Under the pieces are notes generated by a model, which saw nothing but the letters and a program-made list of their open reading frames with translations, made no database searches and was not told the DNA's origin. From IMG/VR virus record IMGVR_UViG_3300031753_000004, positions 1 through 64,000 of that record: a stretch of 64,000 nt of DNA; one strand, 5' to 3'. Below, piece after piece: positions 2 through 44,673 of the stretch (the first letter of the stretch is position 1; each line of letters begins with the position of its first letter). The position numbers and the translations under genes are program-made. Source of the stretch: a virus.

Positions 2-1018
2 GAGATTTACAACTGGGTCACCAAAGGCTGGGAAGGCGTCGGTGAAGATCCGCACCCGAACAAGGCGCTCTTGCCGATTTGGGCGATGGAGAAGGCGAAG
101 CGGGCTGCGAGCAAGACGGAGATCGTTCGCCTCATCCGAGAGTTTGACCTTGTCCGCGAGTGCATTCCAACGAACTGGCTCAATGAGCCGGAAGTTTGGG
201 AGGCGCTTCTGGAGAAAATGCCGCTCACGGCGATGGTCCGAAACCTCGGAAAGATGACCGCTGTTGGCTTGACCAAGCCCCTGTCGGCAGCGGCATCGCT
301 GATTGTGTCTCGCCTCGGGGATGACGACTGGCTCCGCAAGTCTCGTGTCCACCCGCTGGCAGTTCTCGTCGCGCTCAAGACGTATCAGCAGGGCCACGGA
401 GATAAGGGCAAGCTGACGTGGAGCCCGGTCGGTCAAATCGTTGACGCTCTGGACCGCGCGTTCTACGCGGCTTTCGGCAACGTCGAATCGACGGGCAAGA
501 GGTTCATGCTGTCCCTGGACGTGTCCAGCTCGATGGGCGGAGGATTGATCGCAGGAATGCCAGGAATCACCCCGCGCGTCGGCTCGGCCGCAATGGCGCT
601 CATCACGGCAGCCACGGAGCCGAACTTTGTAGCGAACGGTTTCACCACTGGACTGACGCCGCTTTCGATTTCTCCGCGCCAGCGGCTTGACGACGTGATT
701 CGCACCGTGAGCAACTTGCCTTTTGGTGGAACCGATTGTTCCCTGCCGATGGTCCATGCGCTACGGGAGGTGCTGCCGGTTGACGTATTCTGTGTTTACA
801 CCGATTCGGAAACGTGGGCGGGACACATCCATCCGTCCCAAGCGATCCGCGCCTACAGAGAGAAGACGGGCATTTACGCCAAGCTGGTTGTCATCGGCAT
901 GGTGTCTAACGGCTTCTCCATTGCGGACCCGGAGGACGGTGGCATGATGGACGTGGTAGGCTTCGACCTGGCAACGCCTGGTATTATCTCAGACTTCGCG
1001 CGCCGACAGCCGGGTTAG
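2..1018 (+). CDS. Ro60-like TROVE/vWA RNA-binding protein (5' partial)
   Basis: The frame is open to the left edge of the window, so the N-terminus is missing and 338 residues remain. The C-terminal half is a von Willebrand A-like domain with a MIDAS motif (DVSSS near residue 172) and a later TDSETWAGHIHP segment, the pattern seen in Ro60 proteins. The part before it is helical, as expected for the HEAT-like TROVE ring. Family knowledge: Ro60 proteins bind misfolded RNAs and Y RNAs, and in bacteria some guide PNPase. Phage-borne copies are known. The next gene starts 8 nt downstream, so the two are probably co-transcribed. No obvious Y RNA lies downstream of it; one could lie upstream, outside the window. 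Confidence 0.9.
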   Translation, partial: EIYNWVTKGWEGVGEDPHPNKALLPIWAMEKAKRAASKTEIVRLIREFDLVRECIPTNWLNEPEVWEALLEKMPLTAMVRNLGKMTAVGLTKPLSAAASLIVSRLGDDDWLRKSRVHPLAVLVALKTYQQGHGDKGKLTWSPVGQIVDALDRAFYAAFGNVESTGKRFMLSLDVSSSMGGGLIAGMPGITPRVGSAAMALITAATEPNFVANGFTTGLTPLSISPRQRLDDVIRTVSNLPFGGTDCSLPMVHALREVLPVDVFCVYTDSETWAGHIHPSQAIRAYREKTGIYAKLVVIGMVSNGFSIADPEDGGMMDVVGFDLATPGIISDFARRQPG

Positions 1019-1026
1019 GGCACCAT

Positions 1027-2616
1027 ATGCCACAGTATTTCCCAACCGCACTCTGGAAGGTCGGCCCCGATCCAGTCGCCCCTGCCATTACCGACTTCAC
1101 CACCTGCTGCTACGGCGTGGGCTTCGGCACAACGCCGGATCGCACCGAGTCGTGGGAGGCATGGAAGCTAGAGAATAGTCTTGGCTACCTCGGCGACGGC
1201 GACATGGGGCTAGCCAATTGCAGCCAGCAGAATTACCCGTCCAGCGCCGCAGTTCCTCTTTGTCTCGGGGACCCTGCCAAGAGGCAGGCGCTGATCCAGC
1301 AGTTCATCTTGCCCCAGGTGAAGCAGTTCAAGCAGAGCGTGTCGATTACGCCGCCGGATAGCCCGGTCTGGTGTGAGTGCTGGCTCTGCTCGCCCCGTCC
1401 GTACATCGACCGCATCATGCTTTTGGCCAATGACGCTCAAGCAGCCATCCCTTCCGGTTACCGAGTCTGCACGCTGGCTTACTCCAACTACGGCCTCCCT
1501 CCGGACAAGATCCAACCGGATCGCCGGATAGTGGTGATGGTCACGAATGGCCAGCAGACTTCTGGGCTGTCAACCTCTGAAATACTCTGGCTATGGGCCA
1601 AAAAGACCGAAATCAGAGATTTCGGCGTCTACGTCTACGCCAGTGACTTCCAGTTCAACCGGGGCGTCTGGGGCAACATGAAGGGCGCCGTATGGGGCAA
1701 CGCCTGGGCAGGGAATCCGGAAGGCATGGCCTCAGACCTACGGGAGTGGCACGCTCGGGGATCCAGGCATATCGTCGCGGAGTGCGGGGACGACTGGGCG
1801 CTATGCGGGCTCGGGTACTATCTACTAGGACAACTGGCCCGAGACCTTGGAAAGACTCCGAGCACTATCCGCAACGACTTTGCAGCTAGCTGCTTCAATA
1901 GCGCATCGACCGCCTGCGCGTTCTTTGACCTAGTTACGGGCCATCCCTTAGCCTCCGACACAGATAGAGCATACAAGATACTATTACAACTATCGGTAAA
2001 CACGAGCGACTTAGTCCCTAGTGCAAGTAGGATACGTCAGCTCGCCCTCGGCGTCCGCTACGTCGAGCTATGGCTCAAGTACATGCAGACCGGCACACAG
2101 ACCGACTTCGAGGCCCTCTACTATCACGCGCAACGCTCCAATGGGATGGTTCACTTCAACGCTATTACAGAACTCTGTGGTCCAGACGGAATCGACAAAG
2201 GCGTGGTATCTCCCAGCGGCACGGCTACGCCAGTTCCCTATGAGGACTCGGAGATAGACGCATTCGTTGCGACTGGCGCCGCTCTGCCACAAGGACCGCC
2301 TAGTGACAACTGGCCGGATTACTCGAAGGGTATCCGAGCCTCGGTGGATGACACCCCCAACGCCGTGGGAGCCGATAACCTGTTCTACGTGCCTCTCGGG
2401 ACCAAGACCGTAGAGATGTGGGCGTTCGTGGCTGGAGCGATAGGCGACCCGAACGGCAACCTCGCCTTCACCTTCCCCGGTCCTCGCAACATACCCGACT
2501 ACTACTCAATACCCGTGCCGACTGGGTTGGACGGCAAGTGGTGGAGGGTGGAGTACAGCGGACTGCTGGCGTTCATCAACATTCCGCCGTACTTGTTTCA
2601 GAATCCGGCGGCCTAG
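1027..2616 (+). CDS. DUF4838-like glycoside-hydrolase-type protein
   Basis: A 529-residue protein, ATG start 8 nt after the Ro60-like gene. The central part (about residues 60-300) has the order of elements typical of DUF4838 proteins: a strand ending in a VVMVT-like motif, a segment reading LWAKKTEIRDFGVYVY, then a helix followed by SRHIVAECGDDW and a GYYLLGQLARD helix. DUF4838 proteins are TIM-barrel, carbohydrate-associated and common in Planctomycetes. The C-terminal 130 residues look like a beta-rich appendage. No signal peptide is visible. It may act on host surface glycans or be a virion adsorption enzyme. The family assignment rests on pattern memory, not on a search. Confidence 0.6.
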   Translation: MPQYFPTALWKVGPDPVAPAITDFTTCCYGVGFGTTPDRTESWEAWKLENSLGYLGDGDMGLANCSQQNYPSSAAVPLCLGDPAKRQALIQQFILPQVKQFKQSVSITPPDSPVWCECWLCSPRPYIDRIMLLANDAQAAIPSGYRVCTLAYSNYGLPPDKIQPDRRIVVMVTNGQQTSGLSTSEILWLWAKKTEIRDFGVYVYASDFQFNRGVWGNMKGAVWGNAWAGNPEGMASDLREWHARGSRHIVAECGDDWALCGLGYYLLGQLARDLGKTPSTIRNDFAASCFNSASTACAFFDLVTGHPLASDTDRAYKILLQLSVNTSDLVPSASRIRQLALGVRYVELWLKYMQTGTQTDFEALYYHAQRSNGMVHFNAITELCGPDGIDKGVVSPSGTATPVPYEDSEIDAFVATGAALPQGPPSDNWPDYSKGIRASVDDTPNAVGADNLFYVPLGTKTVEMWAFVAGAIGDPNGNLAFTFPGPRNIPDYYSIPVPTGLDGKWWRVEYSGLLAFINIPPYLFQNPAA

Positions 2617-3351: not shown

Positions 3352-4218
3352 GGTGATCCATGATACGTTCACATCCGATGGCGACTCCTTGAACCCCTCG
3401 AACTCATAGATCGTCTGCCTCACGTCCCTGAACTGCATCTCAGGAACCATCCCTCTCAGCTTCTTCGCCTGGGTCCAGCACGAGCGATGCCCGCTCCCGT
3501 CTGGCACCTCTACTATCTCCGTTCCGGTGATCCCCGAAGCCATCCTAGCTATCTCCACTGCTCGGTAGTTCCAGGCTGCCACGTCATAGGTCCCGCCCCA
3601 CTTCTCCTTCAGAGCCCTACACAGTATCTCCGCCACGTCCTGCACGTGGGTCACCGGCTTCCACGCCCCAGGATTCCATAGCTCGATCCTCCCCTTCGTC
3701 CACGCATCCTTGGCTATCGAATTGACGACGAGCTGCGTCTTGGTGCGGGTGACCCCGAGGCCCATGAGCGAGCTGGAGCGAAGTACCAAGTAACGGCTAG
3801 GAAGCCTCTGCCGCACATGGTCCTCTGCCGCTAGCTTTGCCCGGCTATAGGCGCAGTTGGGTGCTGGAACCGTCAGTTCATCTACCTCCCTGTCCGCGTC
3901 CCCATAGACCGTCACCGTTGAGAGGAATACGAATCTCTGCCACCACCGCTTGTCCACCTCATCCACCAGCTTCTTCGTCCGCTCCAGGCACTCCTCCTGA
4001 ACGGCTGGTTCCTTGTCTCCCGCCGAACTGTACCAGGCCAGATGCACCACCGCGTCCGCCGCATCGAGCGGGTTCAAACCCTGCCAGTCGGTGCCTGGCG
4101 AGACTCGGAACACCTTGCCATGCGAGTCCATGCCGAAGTACTGGTTCCCTTGCTTCTCCAGCGCTTTTAGTAGATGCCCGCCTAGGTAGCCGTTGGAGCC
4201 AGTGACGTAGACTCTCAT
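3325..4218 (-). CDS. extended SDR NAD(P)-dependent nucleotide-sugar epimerase/dehydratase
   Basis: A 297-residue protein starting at MRVYVTGSNGYLGG, 10 nt after the upstream stop. The frame stays open further upstream but would run into the 4229-5539 gene. Rossmann glycine motif GSNGYLGG at residues 7-14, catalytic region LSTVTVYG and YSRAK (Tyr-x-x-x-Lys). Such enzymes act on nucleotide-activated sugars in the cytosol; substrate cannot be told. It is the last gene of a minus-strand glycan cassette with glycosyltransferases and a second SDR enzyme. Confidence 0.85.
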   Translation of the reverse strand: MRVYVTGSNGYLGGHLLKALEKQGNQYFGMDSHGKVFRVSPGTDWQGLNPLDAADAVVHLAWYSSAGDKEPAVQEECLERTKKLVDEVDKRWWQRFVFLSTVTVYGDADREVDELTVPAPNCAYSRAKLAAEDHVRQRLPSRYLVLRSSSLMGLGVTRTKTQLVVNSIAKDAWTKGRIELWNPGAWKPVTHVQDVAEILCRALKEKWGGTYDVAAWNYRAVEIARMASGITGTEIVEVPDGSGHRSCWTQAKKLRGMVPEMQFRDVRQTIYEFEGFKESPSDVNVSWITRHAPARSQ

Positions 4219-4228
4219 CAGATCCCAC

Positions 4229-5539
4229 TTACTTTGCTTGAGGTACGAGTATTGAGTCCGACACTTTGGAGAATGCTTGATCGGTAGGCCATTGAGTCTT
4301 GAGGGCCGGTAACAGTTCGTGCAGCCAGTTATTACACGTCTGATGAGTATGGCAGTGCATATATGGGCGGTCGTCGCAGAAGTAGGCCCCGTGCTGACAC
4401 TTCCATCGATCTGAGTTGTCACGAACGTGCAGGGCGATCCATAAACCGGCACGGTTGCAAGAATCGAACACATGCTCTCCGATGAACCAGCCAGGGCAGC
4501 GGAACCCCTTGGTATAGATGGAGTAGTCGAGGGACTTCAGGTAGGCGAGCAGGGTATCGCCCCGGGTGTACTTCATCTCCTCATTCGGCTCGTGCTTGAT
4601 GCCGTGGACCGCCAACTCCAACCACTCCCGCTTCTTTGCCTCATTCAGCAAGGACTGGCTAGTGAGTGCCGGGATGGTGAAGAGCGTAGCTTGGAATCGA
4701 GGGTAGACCCGCTTCAGTTCGTCCAGGTCGTCTAGGCAGTTCCACTTGTCGGCGAAGTCGTCCACGTCGAACGTGACCGGCGGGTCCATGAACCTCTCCA
4801 CGGTCCAGTTCTTCTCGATCCATCGCTTGGGCTCCGAGGAGTAGTTCATGTCGGTGAGGAAGTTGTTGCCGTGGATGAGGACGGTGAACTTCCAGTTGGG
4901 TAGCACCTGCTTCGGCCACCTGCTCCCCACGACACTGTGGTCCCCGATGTCTAGCTTGTTGTACGCCTCCTCGTTCATAAATACGGGCATGGGGATCATC
5001 AACGTATGGAATGGGCTGGAGGGGTTCAGGTAGACCCCCACCTTGCCGCTTCTGAGGTCGTGCATGTACCCACGAGCGAAGATGCTCGACTCCACCCGGC
5101 CGAACTCCTGGGGCTGTGTAGCGTGAGCTATCTCGAGCGCGTCCTTGGAGTAGAGGTCGTCTGAGTCCAGGCGGGTGACGTAGACGTAGTCGCACTGGCG
5201 CATCCGCTGCACGTCTTCTGGTAGAAAGTTGGCCGCGTAGGTTAGGTGTTGCCCAGGCTTGGGCTTGGGAGTGCTGGGGAACGTGAAGAATGCTCTCCGG
5301 CTCTTGCAGATAGGTGGCAGCAGGTTCTTGAGATTATGAACGGCATCTTCCATCCCCTCAGCGCAACAGAACCACAACCCGAAGTCTTGGAATCTCTGGG
5401 CCTCCAGACTCTTGAGCGTGTACCCGGCGAAGAAGGCGTAACGGCGCTCCAGCCAAGCCAAATCGATGTCTGGCCTGCGCCGGTCGAAGTGAATCTTGAC
5501 TAGGTGGAATATCTTCACTTCGCTCTGCTCCTGTGCCAT
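4229..5539 (-). CDS. glycosyltransferase fused to NodB-like polysaccharide deacetylase
   Basis: A 436-residue two-domain protein. Residues 1-250 resemble the putative rhamnosyltransferase family (PF11316-like): VTRLDSDDLYSKDALE carries the DxDD-type sugar-nucleotide motif, and a DIGDHSVVGSRWP segment follows. Residues 255-436 resemble a NodB deacetylase: TFDVDDF (motif 1), HGIKHE (motif 2), GFRCPGWF (motif 3) and a final HCHTH. The expected zinc ligands (Asp, His, His) are all present. The start overlaps the upstream SDR gene by 25 bp. The protein might transfer a sugar and trim an N-acetyl group on a surface polymer; this is inference from the domains. Confidence 0.75.
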   Translation of the reverse strand: MAQEQSEVKIFHLVKIHFDRRRPDIDLAWLERRYAFFAGYTLKSLEAQRFQDFGLWFCCAEGMEDAVHNLKNLLPPICKSRRAFFTFPSTPKPKPGQHLTYAANFLPEDVQRMRQCDYVYVTRLDSDDLYSKDALEIAHATQPQEFGRVESSIFARGYMHDLRSGKVGVYLNPSSPFHTLMIPMPVFMNEEAYNKLDIGDHSVVGSRWPKQVLPNWKFTVLIHGNNFLTDMNYSSEPKRWIEKNWTVERFMDPPVTFDVDDFADKWNCLDDLDELKRVYPRFQATLFTIPALTSQSLLNEAKKREWLELAVHGIKHEPNEEMKYTRGDTLLAYLKSLDYSIYTKGFRCPGWFIGEHVFDSCNRAGLWIALHVRDNSDRWKCQHGAYFCDDRPYMHCHTHQTCNNWLHELLPALKTQWPTDQAFSKVSDSILVPQAK

Positions 5540-6435
5540 TGGATGGTATTCCTCAGCCCTTCCACCAGCCCGGTCGTTTTCCAGTCGGGGAACCTTCTGC
5601 GGAACTTGGACGAGTCCAGCGCCTGATCCGAAATCTGATACGGGTGGAAGTCCTTGACCTCGTATCGGTCCCTCGGCTGCTCCATCCCAGACAGCAGCTC
5701 CTCGACTATCTCCACAGCGCTCCTCACCACGCCAGAGCCAACGTTGTAGACCTCTGACCCTTCCACCTCACCGAGCAGTAGGTAGGCGGCTATGGCGTCG
5801 TCCACGTACATCCACTCCCTCCGTATCCGCTCAGCCCCTCGGTAGACAACGGGCTTCTCACCCCGCAGCACCCGCATGATGCTGCCGGTGATGAGCGTGG
5901 TCTCATTCGTCTGCCCCGGCCCGTAGGTGTTGCAGCAGCGGACCACCTTGACCGGCAACTGGTATAGCCGAGCGTAGTCCTGGCACACCTGGTCGGTGAC
6001 TCTCTTCGTCGCCGAGTAGAAATCACCGCCTAGCAGCAGCGGACTGGTCTCCTTGTAGACGCCGCCCGTCACGTAGAACGATGAGCCGAGCCCGTACGCC
6101 TTGTCGCTGCTTGCTACTACCACCGACCCTACCCCTACACGCCGGCAAGCTTCCAGGACGTTGAGGGTGCCGAGGACGTTGGTCTCGTAGGTCCGCCTCG
6201 GGTCGTCGTAGGACTGGATGACCTCCGTCTGGGCGGCTAAGTGGTAGACGATATCGGGCTTGTAGACTTTTACGCGGTTATAGACGCTCTCGAAGTTCCT
6301 TACATCGTGCCACGACTTGCTCACTGTTTTACCGGCTATGTCGAGTCCTTCGACCTTGTCTCCCCGCTCCGTCAGAGCGGCAGCAAGATGTCGGCCTATG
6401 AACCCTGCCGATCCGGTTATCAGTACCTTTTTCAT
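5515..6435 (-). CDS. NAD-dependent nucleotide-sugar 4,6-dehydratase/epimerase (SDR)
   Basis: A 306-residue protein. The start is the ATG of MKKVLITGSAGFIG, which overlaps the upstream stop as ATGA. GSAGFIG is the NAD-binding motif; VVASSDKAYG and YSATK give the catalytic Ser/Thr-Tyr-Lys set; ETNVLGTLNVLEACR is typical of the family. The SDKAYG motif recalls CDP-glucose 4,6-dehydratases, so a dehydratase making a 4-keto-6-deoxy sugar is plausible. It would supply activated sugars to the adjacent glycosyltransferases. Confidence 0.85.
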   Translation of the reverse strand: MKKVLITGSAGFIGRHLAAALTERGDKVEGLDIAGKTVSKSWHDVRNFESVYNRVKVYKPDIVYHLAAQTEVIQSYDDPRRTYETNVLGTLNVLEACRRVGVGSVVVASSDKAYGLGSSFYVTGGVYKETSPLLLGGDFYSATKRVTDQVCQDYARLYQLPVKVVRCCNTYGPGQTNETTLITGSIMRVLRGEKPVVYRGAERIRREWMYVDDAIAAYLLLGEVEGSEVYNVGSGVVRSAVEIVEELLSGMEQPRDRYEVKDFHPYQISDQALDSSKFRRRFPDWKTTGLVEGLRNTIQWHRSRAK

Positions 6436-7193
6436 GTAGTTACCTCTGGCCTCTTCCATCCCACATCCCTAGCCGCCTCCACGAACAGGTTCCGCTCCTT
6501 CAGGTGCTCTGGCCGGCTACACAATGCCCCGGTCTGGTCCAAATCCGTGGCTATGACCTTCTCCTCATCGCTCTGCTCTCTCGCCGTGACGTAGGTCTGA
6601 TAGCCAGTGCCCATCTGTATTCCCAGGTTGAGCAGCAAGTCGTCGTGGATGTCTACGTTGACCTTGCCCACTAGCTTGCTTCTGAAGGCAAGAGCGTGGT
6701 GAACCAGATCCTGTCGGAAGAACTGGGAGCGGTAGACCATGTCGCACTGGACGGGCTTGTTATCCTTTGGCACACTCCGATAGCGGTAGTAGGGAGTCTC
6801 GCCGAAAAAGTTCCTGCCCACCTGCCCAATGCTGGCGAACTTGTCCCCGAGGTGCTCCGCCGTCTTGAGCAGATTCTCGACCGCCCTCTTGCCCGGCAGG
6901 TAGTCATCGTCGGCGAACAGCACGTAGCGGTGCTGGTAGAGCATGAGCGCAGGGGCAAAGCGGCAGGCGCAGCCGATGTTTTTGCTGATACGCCATACGT
7001 CGTCTGCGTCATCTAAAGCCGGGCTAGGATAAGGTTCTCTTATCTTTAACTGGTTGCCTGTCTTCATCGGCGAGTTATCAACTACCACCGTCATCTTCGG
7101 CTTGACAGTCTGCTCCCTCCACGCCTTCAGCACTGTGGACATATTGTGCGGCCTAGTATAGTTGATAAGGACGAGCAACACGTCTCGGTTCAT
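6432..7193 (-). CDS. GT-A type glycosyltransferase
   Basis: A 253-residue protein coupled to its neighbours by ATGA overlaps at both ends. The N-terminus (VLLVLINYTRPHN), TVVVDNSP and YVLFADDDY (the DxD metal/sugar-nucleotide site) are typical of family 2-like transferases. A second acidic cluster, VNVDIHDDLLLN, sits where a catalytic base is expected. No membrane segment. Acceptor and donor unknown. Confidence 0.8.
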   Translation of the reverse strand: MNRDVLLVLINYTRPHNMSTVLKAWREQTVKPKMTVVVDNSPMKTGNQLKIREPYPSPALDDADDVWRISKNIGCACRFAPALMLYQHRYVLFADDDYLPGKRAVENLLKTAEHLGDKFASIGQVGRNFFGETPYYRYRSVPKDNKPVQCDMVYRSQFFRQDLVHHALAFRSKLVGKVNVDIHDDLLLNLGIQMGTGYQTYVTAREQSDEEKVIATDLDQTGALCSRPEHLKERNLFVEAARDVGWKRPEVTT

Positions 7194-40123: not shown

Positions 40124-40375
40124 CTACTCGACCGCCTTGACATGCTGGTAGTAGGTGAACCCATCAATGATTACCACTGCGATGGTCTCACCGTTGGGAC
40201 GTAGCTTGCGCCTGATACTGGAGAGGTGTGGGCGAATGTTGATTAGTCGGCCCATGTCGTCTGGTAGGCAGGCGTGGAGGTCGGCCTTGGTGTGGAGACG
40301 GCCGTCTCTGAGGAGTTGGAGCATCAGTCTTTCTGTAGGCGTGAATCCGTTCGCGCTAATCGGTCGGCTCCTCAT
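40124..40375 (-). CDS. winged-helix DNA-binding protein
   Basis: An 83-residue protein; I chose the ATG at MRSRPISANGFT (an ATG 10 codons earlier is possible). FTPTERLMLQLLRDG, DLHACLPDDMGRLINIRPHLSSIRRKLRPNGE and a C-terminal hairpin (VIIDGFTYYQ) match the OmpR-type winged-helix DNA-binding domain without a receiver. Possible late-gene regulator or a virion-DNA binder. It overlaps its upstream neighbour. Confidence 0.65.
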   Translation of the reverse strand: MRSRPISANGFTPTERLMLQLLRDGRLHTKADLHACLPDDMGRLINIRPHLSSIRRKLRPNGETIAVVIIDGFTYYQHVKAVE

Positions 40376-40667
40376 CCGGCACTTGCGAGTAGTGCAAGTC
40401 GTCATGATGGAAAAGCGGCTGACGTTTAGCAGCCCTCTCCTCCAGTACACGGATCTTTGCTTCGGTCCCAGGGATAGCTCTCACCGGCCACGTAGGGACC
40501 GTGCTCATCTCCCCGCCGTAGTCGTTGCATCGTTCGCCTTTGCATGACTTGGCGACTCGTGGATACAGCACGCGAATCTCAACGCGCCGGTAGCAGCGCC
40601 AGCACAGGCCGCGTGACTCGGTTCCGGGTAGTCTCCGGCAGTGGCGGCAGTAGGGGATGGTGTTCAT
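40356..40667 (-). CDS. zinc-finger protein CxxC...CxxC
   Basis: A 103-residue protein. The first 30 residues, CRHCRRLPG and LCWRCYRR with LYP after it, form a two-pair zinc finger that I recall as common in phage and planctomycete small proteins. The rest is charged and helical (GTEAKIRVLEERAAKR). Coupled to the MuF gene by ATGA. Confidence 0.6.
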   Translation of the reverse strand: MNTIPYCRHCRRLPGTESRGLCWRCYRRVEIRVLYPRVAKSCKGERCNDYGGEMSTVPTWPVRAIPGTEAKIRVLEERAAKRQPLFHHDDLHYSQVPDEEPTD

Positions 40668-43600
40668 AGGATTCCCTCCGGCGCATCGCTGGCCTCGAAG
40701 TCATCTAGACTCTTGGCTCCAGACTTCTCGGCAGCTTCCTCAATGTCTTCCTTGGTTCGCTTTTGATCTGAGTCGTCTTCGCCCACGTTGGCCGGCAAAA
40801 ATGCGCATCTACAGTTCACGTGCGCCGGGATCATTCCGTGAGCATCATCGATGCTTAGCACAACCCCTTCCATCGGCGAACATTCTTCGCAATTATGGAC
40901 AAGCACACCATTAGCGTAAAACTCCTCTTCATCTTCCACCTGGATGTTGTAGACTGGAAGTGGAATACCAAGCAGTGAATGACCTATTACATCGCTTTCA
41001 GTCAAGAGAGCATAACAATGCCGTTTGAGTTCACGTGCCCCACTTGCAGCACAAGTTTTTATCGACGCACTAAGGGACTCTATCGTGGAGTGAAGAAGCG
41101 CTATTGCTCGTTCGCGTGTTCCCTCAAAGGCAGGAGGGAGGGTGGCTTTAAGTTCGTCTGCGACCAGTGCGGCAAGACATTCAAGAGTCATACTGCGACT
41201 CAAAAGGCCTCCTGCTCTCGCCGGTTCTGTTCCCATCGGTGCTATTCGCTGGCCCGCCGCAATGGTGCCGAACATCCTTGCCCGATTTGTGGGAAGAAGA
41301 TCCATCGGTGGGCTAGTTCTATCGTCAAAGGCGATCGGCGCTTCTGCTCCAGATCTTGTTACGAGTCCTCTAGGCAAAACGAGGTCGCTAAGGTCTGCCT
41401 CGGCTGCGGTAAGTCCTTCACTGTCAATGGCTCTACTTCCGACCGATACGCATATTGTTCGGTCAAGTGCCGGGTCAAAACCAAGGGAGGCGAATACAGA
41501 CGGTGCCGGTCCTGCGGAAAGCGAATCCTTTTGGGCGGCTGTGATAAACGCCGTGGCAATATGAGGAAACATTGCTCCGAAGAGTGTCGCCGTCCTCCAG
41601 TTATCCAGAAGTGCGTCACCTGCGGCACTGAATTTAGGAGAGTTCCATCCAACACCAAGAGGCGCTTTTGCTCGTTCGCTTGCTACCGTCGCTCGCGCCA
41701 TGAAACCTCTCTTGAGCGAATGGTACGGCTCGCACTTGACAGGCTCGGCATCGCTTACATCCAAGAGGCACGAGTCGGCCGGTTCTCTGTGGACTTCTTG
41801 CTCCCACACACGATGGTCGCTATTGAGGCCGACGGCACCTACTGGCATCGAAACACCGAGAGGGACGCCAGGAAGAATACGTGCCTCTCCCGCTTGGGAT
41901 GGCGCGTCTACCGAATCACCGAAGCGGAAGTTAATAATGCCAAGGATGTCGGCAAGCTCATTTCCGACCGTCTGCAATGTCTGTTCTAACCGAAGTTTCC
42001 CGGCCGCTGTCCATCCTTGTTCCGAAGTCCAGAACGGGTGATTGGCGGTCGATGTGTTCCTGCCGACCGCTGTGAGTACGGTCGTCATCGGTCCTTCGTA
42101 GTCTCTCACGAACGTCTTGAGAACCGCACGCCAGCCGCCTCTTGTCCTCACTTTCATGCCGACCAGTATGTCTTGGATCGGCACTTCGCCTTCCTCCGTC
42201 TCGACCAGAGTCCACGCTGGAAAACACACATGGTCGTCCCCTGCCGTGCTCCACTCGACCGCTACGCCGACCTCTTGCACTCCCAGGTCTTCCATTGCGT
42301 CAAGCTGCCCTTCGGCGTGGGCTCGGATAATCTCCGTGCGTGCAACCGCTTCCGCCCTCACCTCCGAAAATCCAACCTCGTCCTCCAGGTCGCCAGCAAT
42401 CTCCAAGGGATGCTTTCCTTGCACTAATCCATCTGTGAGGGCTCTGCTGCACTTATTCGACATATCCTCCGTCACGTTCTTCAGCTCATCGAACGTGCGG
42501 TCAGCCAGAAGCCGCACTTTCTCAATCGACTCCGGCTGCGCGAAAGACGACCGCAGGAACTCTTCGCGCGTGCCCCGGTAGAAGTCGCTCACCGACTGTT
42601 GCGCCTCAGCCGTGAATAGCTCGGGATGCTCCTTGCCCAGCTTGGACATTCGCACATCGTCAAACGCTCTGCCGGCGCCTTTGGCGAAGCCTTCTTGGAT
42701 GTATCGCTTCCAGCGCTCCTCTTCGGTTTCGTTGCTGATGAGGGAGAACGTCTGCCGCTTGAGCCACGCCTGGAATGCCTTCACCTTGTCGGTGGGATCG
42801 TGGAACATCCAGCGGGTGTTGACTACCAGCGAGTATGTTCCTTCGACGTGGCGGAAGGGAACCTCAACGGTTCTGAACTCTCTGGCGTTGGTAGTCAACA
42901 TCGGCTTCGGATGCTTCTCGTACAAGTCGTGCGCCAGGTCAATAGCCTGCATCACCCCGCCCGTCTCGTCCAATGCCGCCGACAAGAGAGCGTAGTACCA
43001 ATCGTTGAACCCGTGCGCCTCGAGCGCCATAGCCACGGTCGCAGCGTTCTCTTGCTCCGAGTTGTGGATGAGGTATCGCTTGACACCACCGCTCACCTTG
43101 CCGGCCGCCTCTTTGACGAGCCCGGTAGCAGCACGGATTGTGGCCAGCGGATCGCGGGCCGTCGAATACGCCAGATATCCCACCGAGGCCACAGGCAGAG
43201 TCCCGGTCACTAGCGCGGGCAGATGGGCCGCATGGACGCCTGCTATGGCGCTGAACTTAAACGCCTCGAATGTGCCGAGGTCGATCTTGCTGAGCACCCC
43301 TCGGAGTTGCTTGGCCTGCTCTGGAGTATGGCCACGCTCTCGCGCTGTCCTCTCGGCGAGCGCCTGCGTGGACGTGAAGACTGCGAACGCGGCAGAGATC
43401 CCCATCTTGCCGGCGTAGGCTAGCGGGCCGTAGGTGGCATTCACCGCGTGGGGTAAGTGATCTGGCAGGCTTGATACCGCTTTACCAATGCCGTCTGCTG
43501 CGTAGGACTTGGCAAGGTGCTCGATATGGGCAGCGCCGGTGCCTACTGCCTTCAGGCCGGTAAGCATGCCGGAGAAGGAGATCCTACCTTCGCCTTCAAG

Positions 43601-44545
43601 AGAACCGAACTCGCCGCCTTCGCCCCATCTGCCGTGTTCGTCGCGGGGCTGGTCTGGGCTCCAATTCCGAATGACTTGATCCCTGATTGGCATTCCTGTT
43701 CCGCTGCCACCTATCCAATGCTTGAAGGCCGACATGGTGACGGCCTTCATCCCGTCGAACCCGGTCCAGCCCTCCGAGTAGTTATCGTGATAGGCTTTCT
43801 TGGCGTCCTTCGCATTCGTGAAGCCGACCATGCACTTGTGCTCGTCGAACGTACCGTCCTGCCGCTTCTGGTCGATGATGAACACGACCTCGCTCTCTGG
43901 GTGCGGACCTAGAAACACGTCCACATGGTCACCGTCCGCCTCGCTCTCAGTCCTCTTGATGTAGCCGTAGTGGTGGGCCATTCGCTGGACGTAGCTCTTG
44001 CCCCGGCGAAGGTTGCCGGCCGCTACCTCTATGGTGATCGGAAGCCCCTGGACCGTGACATGGCCCTTGCGGTAGTTGCCCGCCTCTTTCTGCTCGGGTG
44101 ATGGGTCGGGGTCGGCCTCACTTGCTGCCGCCTCAATCGCCGCTCGTAGATCGCGGTTTACCGTAAACGGCTCTCGCTCCTTCAGCCCGAAGGCGTCCTC
44201 GTCCACCAAAAGCTTGACGATCCTACCCTTGAGGAGCGCAAACTGCCGCTTGATCTTGGCACAGAACGCCCGGCGCATCGTCACAGTTTTTGTCGGATCA
44301 AGGCGCGATGCCTTGACGCTCGGCTTCTTCTTGGCCTTTTTGTTGGCGCGGAGTTTCAGCTTGTTTGTGGCGATGCGGTTCGGTTTGCGCTTGGGGAGCT
44401 TCTTGCCCTTTGGAGTGTGCTCCTCCCAGCGCTTGGCCATAGCGGGATCGTTGGCGTGCATCCATGCGCGCTGTTTTTCAGATACAAACGGGTTCACCGT
44501 CAGGGCGTTGGCCGTCGGTCGGCGCTTCTTGGGTCGGACTTTCAT
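40664..44545 (-). CDS. MuF-type minor head protein with InPase-like domain and intein
   Basis: A 1293-residue precursor. Start at the ATG of MKVRPKKRRP with AAGGACAAGAA before it. Order: a basic N-terminus, a phage-type inorganic-pyrophosphatase-like domain at about 150-280 (GNYRKGHVTVQGLPI, ADGDHVDVFLGPHPES, DEHKCMVGFTNAKDA), a DQPRDEHGRWGEGGEF motif near 300, a hydrophobic helical region, the MuF domain at about 600-773, an intein (774-1218), and the MuF end (CEECSPMEGVV, HVNCRCAFL). Splicing would give an 848-residue protein. MuF proteins are minor capsid proteins bound near the portal, and the InPase-like domain occurs with them. Confidence 0.85.
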   Translation of the reverse strand: MKVRPKKRRPTANALTVNPFVSEKQRAWMHANDPAMAKRWEEHTPKGKKLPKRKPNRIATNKLKLRANKKAKKKPSVKASRLDPTKTVTMRRAFCAKIKRQFALLKGRIVKLLVDEDAFGLKEREPFTVNRDLRAAIEAAASEADPDPSPEQKEAGNYRKGHVTVQGLPITIEVAAGNLRRGKSYVQRMAHHYGYIKRTESEADGDHVDVFLGPHPESEVVFIIDQKRQDGTFDEHKCMVGFTNAKDAKKAYHDNYSEGWTGFDGMKAVTMSAFKHWIGGSGTGMPIRDQVIRNWSPDQPRDEHGRWGEGGEFGSLEGEGRISFSGMLTGLKAVGTGAAHIEHLAKSYAADGIGKAVSSLPDHLPHAVNATYGPLAYAGKMGISAAFAVFTSTQALAERTARERGHTPEQAKQLRGVLSKIDLGTFEAFKFSAIAGVHAAHLPALVTGTLPVASVGYLAYSTARDPLATIRAATGLVKEAAGKVSGGVKRYLIHNSEQENAATVAMALEAHGFNDWYYALLSAALDETGGVMQAIDLAHDLYEKHPKPMLTTNAREFRTVEVPFRHVEGTYSLVVNTRWMFHDPTDKVKAFQAWLKRQTFSLISNETEEERWKRYIQEGFAKGAGRAFDDVRMSKLGKEHPELFTAEAQQSVSDFYRGTREEFLRSSFAQPESIEKVRLLADRTFDELKNVTEDMSNKCSRALTDGLVQGKHPLEIAGDLEDEVGFSEVRAEAVARTEIIRAHAEGQLDAMEDLGVQEVGVAVEWSTAGDDHVCFPAWTLVETEEGEVPIQDILVGMKVRTRGGWRAVLKTFVRDYEGPMTTVLTAVGRNTSTANHPFWTSEQGWTAAGKLRLEQTLQTVGNELADILGIINFRFGDSVDAPSQAGEARILPGVPLGVSMPVGAVGLNSDHRVWEQEVHREPADSCLLDVSDAEPVKCEPYHSLKRGFMARATVASERAKAPLGVGWNSPKFSAAGDALLDNWRTATLFGAMFPHIATAFITAAQKDSLSAGPAPSVFASLGFDPALDRTICVSVGSRAIDSEGLTAAEADLSDLVLPRGLVTRSGAEAPIAFDDRTSPPMDLLPTNRARMFGTIAAGQRIAPMGTEPARAGGLLSRSMTLECLAALVADELKATLPPAFEGTRERAIALLHSTIESLSASIKTCAASGARELKRHCYALLTESDVIGHSLLGIPLPVYNIQVEDEEEFYANGVLVHNCEECSPMEGVVLSIDDAHGMIPAHVNCRCAFLPANVGEDDSDQKRTKEDIEEAAEKSGAKSLDDFEASDAPEGIL
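40892..42226 (-). other. intein in the MuF protein (445 residues)
   Basis: First residue Cys (CFPAWTLVETEEGEVP, block A), block B at VGRNTSTANHPFW, block F/G at VYNIQVEDEEEFYANGVLVHN, followed by +1 Cys. All key residues (Cys1, block-B His, penultimate His, Asn, Cys+1) are present, and the site, D-H-V|C-x-x-C, is the conserved MuF zinc-knuckle motif. The splicing parts are only about 79 N-terminal and 42 C-terminal residues. The middle 324 codons have no LAGLIDADG or HNH motif in this frame but are covered by an opposite-strand gene. Confidence 0.85.
41018..41989 (+). CDS. six-zinc-finger DUF559/Vsr-like homing endonuclease, antisense in the intein
   Basis: A 323-residue protein on the plus strand inside the intein. 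ATG at MPFEFTCPTC with AAGAGAG upstream. Six fingers of one type follow (CPTC..YCSFAC, CDQC..FCSHRC, CPIC..FCSRSC, CLGC..YCSVKC, CRSC..HCSEEC, CVTC..FCSFAC). The C-terminal 90 residues read VDFLLPHTMVAIEADGTYWH, then ERDARKNTCLSRLGWRVYRI, the EDxHD/Vsr-DUF559 nuclease pattern. Codons are exactly in register with the intein's codons on the other strand. It would cut intein-less MuF alleles and spread the intein. Confidence 0.8.
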   Translation: MPFEFTCPTCSTSFYRRTKGLYRGVKKRYCSFACSLKGRREGGFKFVCDQCGKTFKSHTATQKASCSRRFCSHRCYSLARRNGAEHPCPICGKKIHRWASSIVKGDRRFCSRSCYESSRQNEVAKVCLGCGKSFTVNGSTSDRYAYCSVKCRVKTKGGEYRRCRSCGKRILLGGCDKRRGNMRKHCSEECRRPPVIQKCVTCGTEFRRVPSNTKRRFCSFACYRRSRHETSLERMVRLALDRLGIAYIQEARVGRFSVDFLLPHTMVAIEADGTYWHRNTERDARKNTCLSRLGWRVYRITEAEVNNAKDVGKLISDRLQCLF

Positions 44546-44673
44546 TTCTTGTCCTTGAGCAGGTCCCGTATCTGCCGCAGATAGGCGGAGATGTTGCACA
44601 GAACCAAGAATGACAACACGGCCAGGGTCGCCTTTGCCCACTCATCAAGCAGGTTTTCGTATGCTCCAATCAT
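44542..44673 (-). CDS. 43-residue membrane protein
   Basis: Exactly fills the gap between two genes: its ATG overlaps the upstream TGA (ATGA) and its TGA overlaps the MuF ATG (ATGA). It encodes an acidic start (YENLLDEWAK), one transmembrane helix (ATLAVLSFLVLCNISAYL) and a basic end. The perfect double coupling makes a real gene likely. Confidence 0.65.
   Translation of the reverse strand: MIGAYENLLDEWAKATLAVLSFLVLCNISAYLRQIRDLLKDKK

Follow-up and report, generated by a model that had tools for sequence, protein, structure and literature searches.

How can one stretch of viral DNA be read as an intein on one strand and as a complete endonuclease gene on the other, and over what length is each reading functional? 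The locus lies in a 64,000-nt window (the whole stretch of DNA that was analysed), which is part of a 72,096-base IMG/VR virus record. The initial annotation had placed in a MuF protein a 445-residue intein with intact ends and, antisense within it, a complete six-zinc-finger DUF559/Vsr-like (EDxHD) gene whose codons are exactly in register with those of the intein. Motifs, family matches, and direct reading of the codons bore out all three claims (Table 1). From our analysis, the locus is quite probably a mobile class-1-type mini-intein whose homing endonuclease is a separate gene, overprinted on the opposite strand and expressed apart.

Table 1. Features of the intein, its host gene, and the overprinted endonuclease gene, in positions of the window
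Feature	Position	Strand	Basis or remark
Host gene, MuF-type head protein ORF, intein-interrupted	40664..44641	-	Phage_Mu_F 2.2e-9, SPP1 gp7 domain 8e-10, InPase 8.8e-47
Inorganic-pyrophosphatase-type domain (InPase, PF18823) near MuF ORF N-terminus	43712-44095	-	8.8e-47
Intein, 445 aa, class-1-type ends, begins CFPAWT, ends VLVHN before Cys	40892..42226	-	Motifs, family matches
Cys1 codon of intein	42224..42226	-	Invariant in 18 nested inteins
Block B TANH codons (T60 to H63)	42038..42049	-	T60, H63 invariant
Intein N-terminal splicing part outside endonuclease gene, 79 aa	41990..42226	-	pLDDT about 95, residues 1-100
Intein C-terminal splicing part, 42 aa, ends HN	40892..41017	-	pLDDT about 94, residues 421-445
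Cys+1 codon, first residue of C-extein	40889..40891	-	Sequence
Overprinted homing endonuclease gene, 323 aa; alternative upstream ATG 40979	41018..41989	+	In register with intein codons
Six CxxC...CxxxC zinc-finger-like units, predicted DNA binding	41036..41683	+	Cys pattern conserved, read from sequence
EDxHD / DUF559 / Vsr-like nuclease domain	41705..41962	+	Family matches, fold, conserved residues
Weak Shine-Dalgarno-like AAGAGAG, 7 bases before ATG 41018	41004..41010	+	Not a 4-base exact match

On the minus strand, one continuous MuF ORF of 1325 aa (counted from the first possible start, the true start being undetermined) reads through the whole intein. A split intein or fractured gene was ruled out, as the intein halves are not on separate genes. 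The motifs that define class 1 inteins (Cys1, block B TxxH, C-terminal His-Asn, and Cys+1) are all present, and Cys1, T60xxH63, H444, and N445 are invariant in an alignment of 18 nested inteins. The intein_Cterm family was matched above its cut-off (3.9e-5) and Intein_splicing (PF14890) below its curated cut-off (6.1e-5). A profile of the 18 nested inteins matched solved mini-inteins at both the N- and C-parts (gp41-1, 9.9e-14), which, together with a structure model that is confident at residues 1-100 and 421-445, is indicative of a Hint fold for both ends, predicted and not solved. Hint ends of this type are expected to splice. The in-frame endonuclease domain of large, endonuclease-containing inteins is absent, the endonuclease being encoded on the opposite strand. 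Comparison with intein-less MuF genes, proposed in the initial annotation, yielded the remaining mark of a class 1 intein, an intein-free allele with uninterrupted host sequence at the site: relative L211 is 78% identical over 221 residues and uninterrupted exactly at the intein site (DDDSVCPECAALDG). This precise position rests on the protein comparison, as the DNA alignment to the empty allele was poor with scattered flanks. Its sequence marks L211 as an empty allele, which does not in itself make it a substrate of the endonuclease.

Profile searches, likewise suggested for both proteins, returned a zinc-finger/DUF559-type endonuclease for the plus strand beside the intein matches given above. 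The families matched were MTES_1575 (8.7e-11), DUF559 (9.6e-10), and Vsr (3.1e-4), and the only clear PDB match was 3r3p, the homing endonuclease I-Bth0305I (3.5e-6; 8.6e-18 with a profile), which was also the top structural match of an AlphaFold model of the protein (pLDDT 81; TM 0.81 normalised to the target). The nuclease motif EADGTYWH is present, and E233, E270, D272, W276, and H277 are conserved in 19 nested relatives, with D259 nearly so; the Vsr-like fold and the conserved E, D, D, H expected of an EDxHD / DUF559 enzyme are thus met, and catalytic residues are intact in the endonuclease as in the splicing parts. When the window was compared with its relatives, differences at the first, second, and third positions of endonuclease codons amounted to 0.50, 0.44, and 0.68, respectively. 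The plus-strand protein is therefore under purifying selection, because the third position is the most variable, and the conserved catalytic residues and this codon-position variation rule out an endonuclease fossil. Matches in sequenced phages were about 25-30% identical (e.g., mycobacteriophages, Microcystis phage MaeS, Campylobacter phages). Two of the regions, those of MaeS and Camster, were inspected, and in both the annotation shows the relative as a normal stand-alone gene with other genes around it. Good Shine-Dalgarno sites precede the endonuclease in several relatives (e.g., L026, L025, L016, L028).

We then considered whether the arrangement recurs. Loci were found with the endonuclease as the starting point of the searches, and all six frames were read; each scan rests on one or two short conserved peptides, which makes the counts lower bounds, and a rescan (A2) returned the same contigs as the earlier scan. 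The antisense layout occurs in 21 distinct loci including the window, that is, in at least 20 others, all phage or prophage (WIN, L003, L004, L005, L006, L008, L015, L016, L019, L021, L022, L025, L026, L027, L028, L029, L031, L032, L048, L162, L168). L048 has the same coordinates and scores as L079 of the isolate genome Gordonibacillus kamchatkensis L079. The register is 0 in 21/21, and each intein has Cys1, block B, and a terminal HN followed by C, which supports the proposal that the gene sits antisense at the usual endonuclease site of a mini-intein with the intein frame kept open. In seven further loci (L023, L033, L035, L040, L041, L146, L149), endonuclease and intein share a strand but the endonuclease is in the +1 frame, and here too no stop interrupts the intein frame; ten loci (L045-L047, L049, L054, L178, L191, L195, L205, L207) carry a member of the family in frame, in the conventional way. 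The host frame is open in all 28 overprinted loci (21 antisense and 7 +1). The pattern that would have refuted the initial annotation, a broken plus-strand frame opposite a conserved intein frame, was looked for and not seen; both frames are open in every antisense endonuclease found with both Hint halves at its flanks. Among the hosts of the nested endonucleases are MuF-like proteins and portal-containing fusions (L005, L162); Pfam left others unidentified.

Several loci show further arrangements. In L007, an intein N-part is fused to the endonuclease (4005-5768) and the C-part lies in a separate, slightly overlapping ORF (5735-6820), which looks like a split intein with the endonuclease joined to its N-half. 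The minus-strand ORF of L016 (2601-6140) contains two inteins, whose endonucleases, both of this family, are antisense in the first and in frame in the second, and the C-terminal part of this host matches an ADP-ribosyltransferase family. The L008 phage, besides its nested gene, has a second, weaker endonuclease of the family (98-1354, minus strand; 38.8 bits).

That the host frame is open because stops are avoided could be measured against a null in which synonymous codons were resampled by the codon usage of the rest of each locus. In the 21 antisense genes, no host-frame stop was seen vs 122 expected (log10 P -63), and in the seven +1 genes none vs 115 (log10 P -60). In 15 free-standing relatives, there was no avoidance in either the antisense frame (128 stops seen vs 114 expected) or the +1 frame (373 vs 324), and the remaining frames of the nested genes have stop counts near expectation. 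The signal of the window gene alone is modest (4.2 stops expected, P(no stop) about 0.0125). The open frame was not the only criterion by which the nested set was recognised, the other being the flanking Hint halves; when the search was relaxed by masking stops, no endonuclease with both Hint halves at its flanks turned out to have a broken intein frame. Two free-standing endonucleases without flanking Hint halves are nearly stop-free in the antisense register (L037 4944-6089, 0 stops vs 5.8 expected; L011 5013-5711, 1 vs 6.9); these are possibly escapees from inteins.

The two frames used are also those in which stops can be removed silently. When stops that no synonymous choice can remove were counted for 46 endonuclease proteins, there were none for 46/46 in the antisense register-0 and +1 frames, vs totals of 115, 147, and 36 in the other three frames. 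The stop-relevant codons are TTA, CTA, and TCA only in antisense register 0, and NNT before AAN, AGN, or GAN in +1. All 28 overprinted cases sit in these two silently cleanable frames; the rule itself is an inference from the pattern in one endonuclease family.

In a quick maximum-likelihood tree of 52 endonucleases, layouts were strongly clustered in comparison with shuffles (layout changes: antisense 7 vs 16, +1 2 vs 7, in frame 1 vs 8). Terminal branches are long, with a median of 0.96 changes per column, and stop-free overprinting has therefore been maintained for a long time, whereas many inner branches are weak, leaving the number and direction of layout switches unsettled. The free-standing endonucleases of L002, L009, L010, L030, and L034 directly adjoin intein-less MuF-like genes, which may be their targets. 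That the nested enzyme cuts element-less alleles at the insertion site, that is, homes, is inferred from its family, location, and sporadic distribution, and a different target is conceivable. The gene could be an independent selfish gene that targets the DNA of an endonuclease-less mini-intein, or some other site, and that finds in the intein a safe harbour without mobilising it. Its ORF is complete, free-standing relatives exist, and the family occupies inteins in three different frame relations, all of which would suit such a gene. We nevertheless hold this possible but unlikely, as several free-standing relatives adjoin intein-less MuF genes and not unrelated places, and nested ones sit repeatedly in MuF-like or portal-containing genes; both observations fit a host-gene target, as the mobile mini-intein would have it.

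The initial annotation had further suggested that each strand codes a functional-looking product; function can be upheld for the plus strand and for the ends of the intein. Were the antisense reading a functional middle domain, both strands would be selected along the whole overlap. Conservation of the antisense reading is slightly above the null (0.347 vs 0.326; in a portal trio, 0.671 vs 0.621), so that the codon-substitution check gave the pattern of a selected protein for the plus strand but only a small excess for the other. This null keeps the endonuclease protein and shuffles its codons, ignoring shared ancestry at third positions, which alone yields some excess; the small excess may come from it. 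Two antisense columns are strongly conserved across the full set, and each is the mirror image of a conserved endonuclease residue (a Pro opposite the Trp of YWH, and a Trp opposite a Pro). The model predicts no fold between residues 105 and 368. The intein as a query gave no confirmed relative among viral contigs, because its middle is not conserved, and only short N-terminal Hint matches among sequenced phages. An overlap selected throughout is highly improbable. By codon-position variation, conservation, and the structure model, the intein middle is a stop-free, predicted-disordered filler, with function confined to the two ends. The one place where both strands may count is the endonuclease 3' end. 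The stated 79- and 42-residue splicing parts outside the gene were confirmed, with the refinement that in the model the Hint N-terminal strands probably continue to about residue 102 (near 41921), overlapping that end; some 20 codons there would probably code functionally on both strands, and true dual coding is likely confined to roughly these last endonuclease codons, which encode Hint strands.

It could also be that the insert is not spliced as protein. It would then be either an RNA intron that carries its endonuclease gene antisense or a ShiLan-like insert that stays unspliced. Antisense homing endonuclease genes are known in group I introns (PMC9548176), and unspliced inserts with hidden endonucleases have been proposed (PMC11855218). 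A self-splicing intron was rejected, as no RNA core was detected (no Rfam match at E up to 1 in 40300-42700) and the host frame is open throughout; an unspliced insert was rejected on the invariant splicing motifs of the 18 inteins and the confidently modelled Hint ends, with solved mini-inteins matching at both. We find either version hardly tenable. Finally, an ordinary intein might face a plus-strand ORF that is decayed or arose by chance and is open through base composition. This reading gains something from the long antisense ORFs that are commoner at high GC (P(no stop) up to 0.25 in single high-GC loci), but the family matches, fold, and conserved catalytic residues of the endonuclease refute it, as does the count of 0 of 122 expected stops in a set that includes AT-rich loci with third-position GC of 0.2-0.3, leaving it virtually no chance.

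For the mobile mini-intein, the following course can be proposed, of which splicing, independent expression of the endonuclease, cleavage, and homing are all inferred without experiment. The MuF mRNA would be translated straight through the intein, and the Hint halves would fold, excise the intein, and ligate the MuF halves. The usual place of the endonuclease domain would be taken by a long, probably disordered loop, which is the antisense reading of the endonuclease gene. The endonuclease would be transcribed and translated on its own, from its own start, bind DNA via its zinc fingers, and cut intein-less MuF alleles, upon which repair would copy the intein and endonuclease gene together. 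As the host depends on an uninterrupted intein frame, TTA, CTA, and TCA have to be absent from the endonuclease gene, which is possible by silent change alone. As a speculation, placement on the opposite strand could also allow the endonuclease and the head gene to be expressed at different times. Against this explanation, it is not established that splicing tolerates a disordered insert of roughly 320 residues, on the plus strand of the window a promoter scan saw no sigma-70-like promoter and the ribosome-binding site is weak, and the window gene taken alone gives only the modest stop signal reported above.

Ordinary endonuclease-containing class 1 inteins share with this element the splicing ends, a conserved host-protein site, and an endonuclease in mid-element; the endonuclease is an in-frame domain in them and a separate opposite-strand gene here. 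Dassa et al. 2009 reportedly described fractured genes in which a free-standing Vsr-like endonuclease lies between the halves of a split intein. These are alike in having a nuclease of a similar family as a separate gene between intein halves (L007 resembles them), but their halves are on separate genes whereas the intein here is continuous. I-Bth0305I (3r3p) has the same nuclease domain by sequence and fold, but is intron-associated according to its PDB description ('Mobile intron protein'), and the six-finger array here is unmatched to it. In group I introns (PMC9548176), the endonuclease gene can likewise lie opposite the host-gene strand inside a self-splicing element, but that element is an rDNA intron spliced as RNA and has no protein frame to keep open. 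The nearest precedent is the ShiLan domain, a hidden out-of-frame HNH in a phage methylase insert (Arsenault, Gosselin and Gogarten 2025, PMC11855218). It too is a zinc-finger-flanked endonuclease gene overprinted in a phage gene with the host frame open across it, and its sporadic distribution, as here, suggests homing. It differs in lying on the same strand in the 'third frame', in its HNH nuclease and methylase host, and in lacking splicing motifs, and no antisense case is reported with it (PMC11855218); our locus, antisense and with splicing motifs, is not of this type. The ShiLan HNH may fall outside the frame rule.

Regarding the earlier view that no such case had been described, no intein with an antisense or +1 endonuclease gene was found in the literature searched, which did not extend to the Gosselin 2025 preprint, Dassa 2009, or Gorbalenya 1998; the view has to be tempered by the close precedent of ShiLan and by that preprint (Gosselin, Arsenault and Gogarten 2025, 'Actinobacteriophage Inteins: ... 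Non-Canonical Architecture', doi 10.1101/2025.01.02.630785), which, going by its title and its citation in PMC11855218, concerns unusual intein layouts and overlapping frames. With this reservation, we lean slightly towards a widespread, old, and undescribed class of mobile inteins, in which the endonuclease is overprinted in exactly the two silently cleanable frames and its expression is separated from that of the host structural gene. The finding indicates that a mobile intein can be built otherwise than in the usual way, as endonuclease and splicing element need share neither frame nor strand. It offers a natural and many-times-replicated case of overprinting with a simple rule, the possible frames being those in which all stops are synonymously removable, which bears on how overlapping genes evolve and on the design of entangled genes. 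Such overprinted endonuclease genes will probably be overlooked or mis-called by annotation pipelines. In essence, the co-evolution of inteins and their endonucleases becomes testable with clear predictions.
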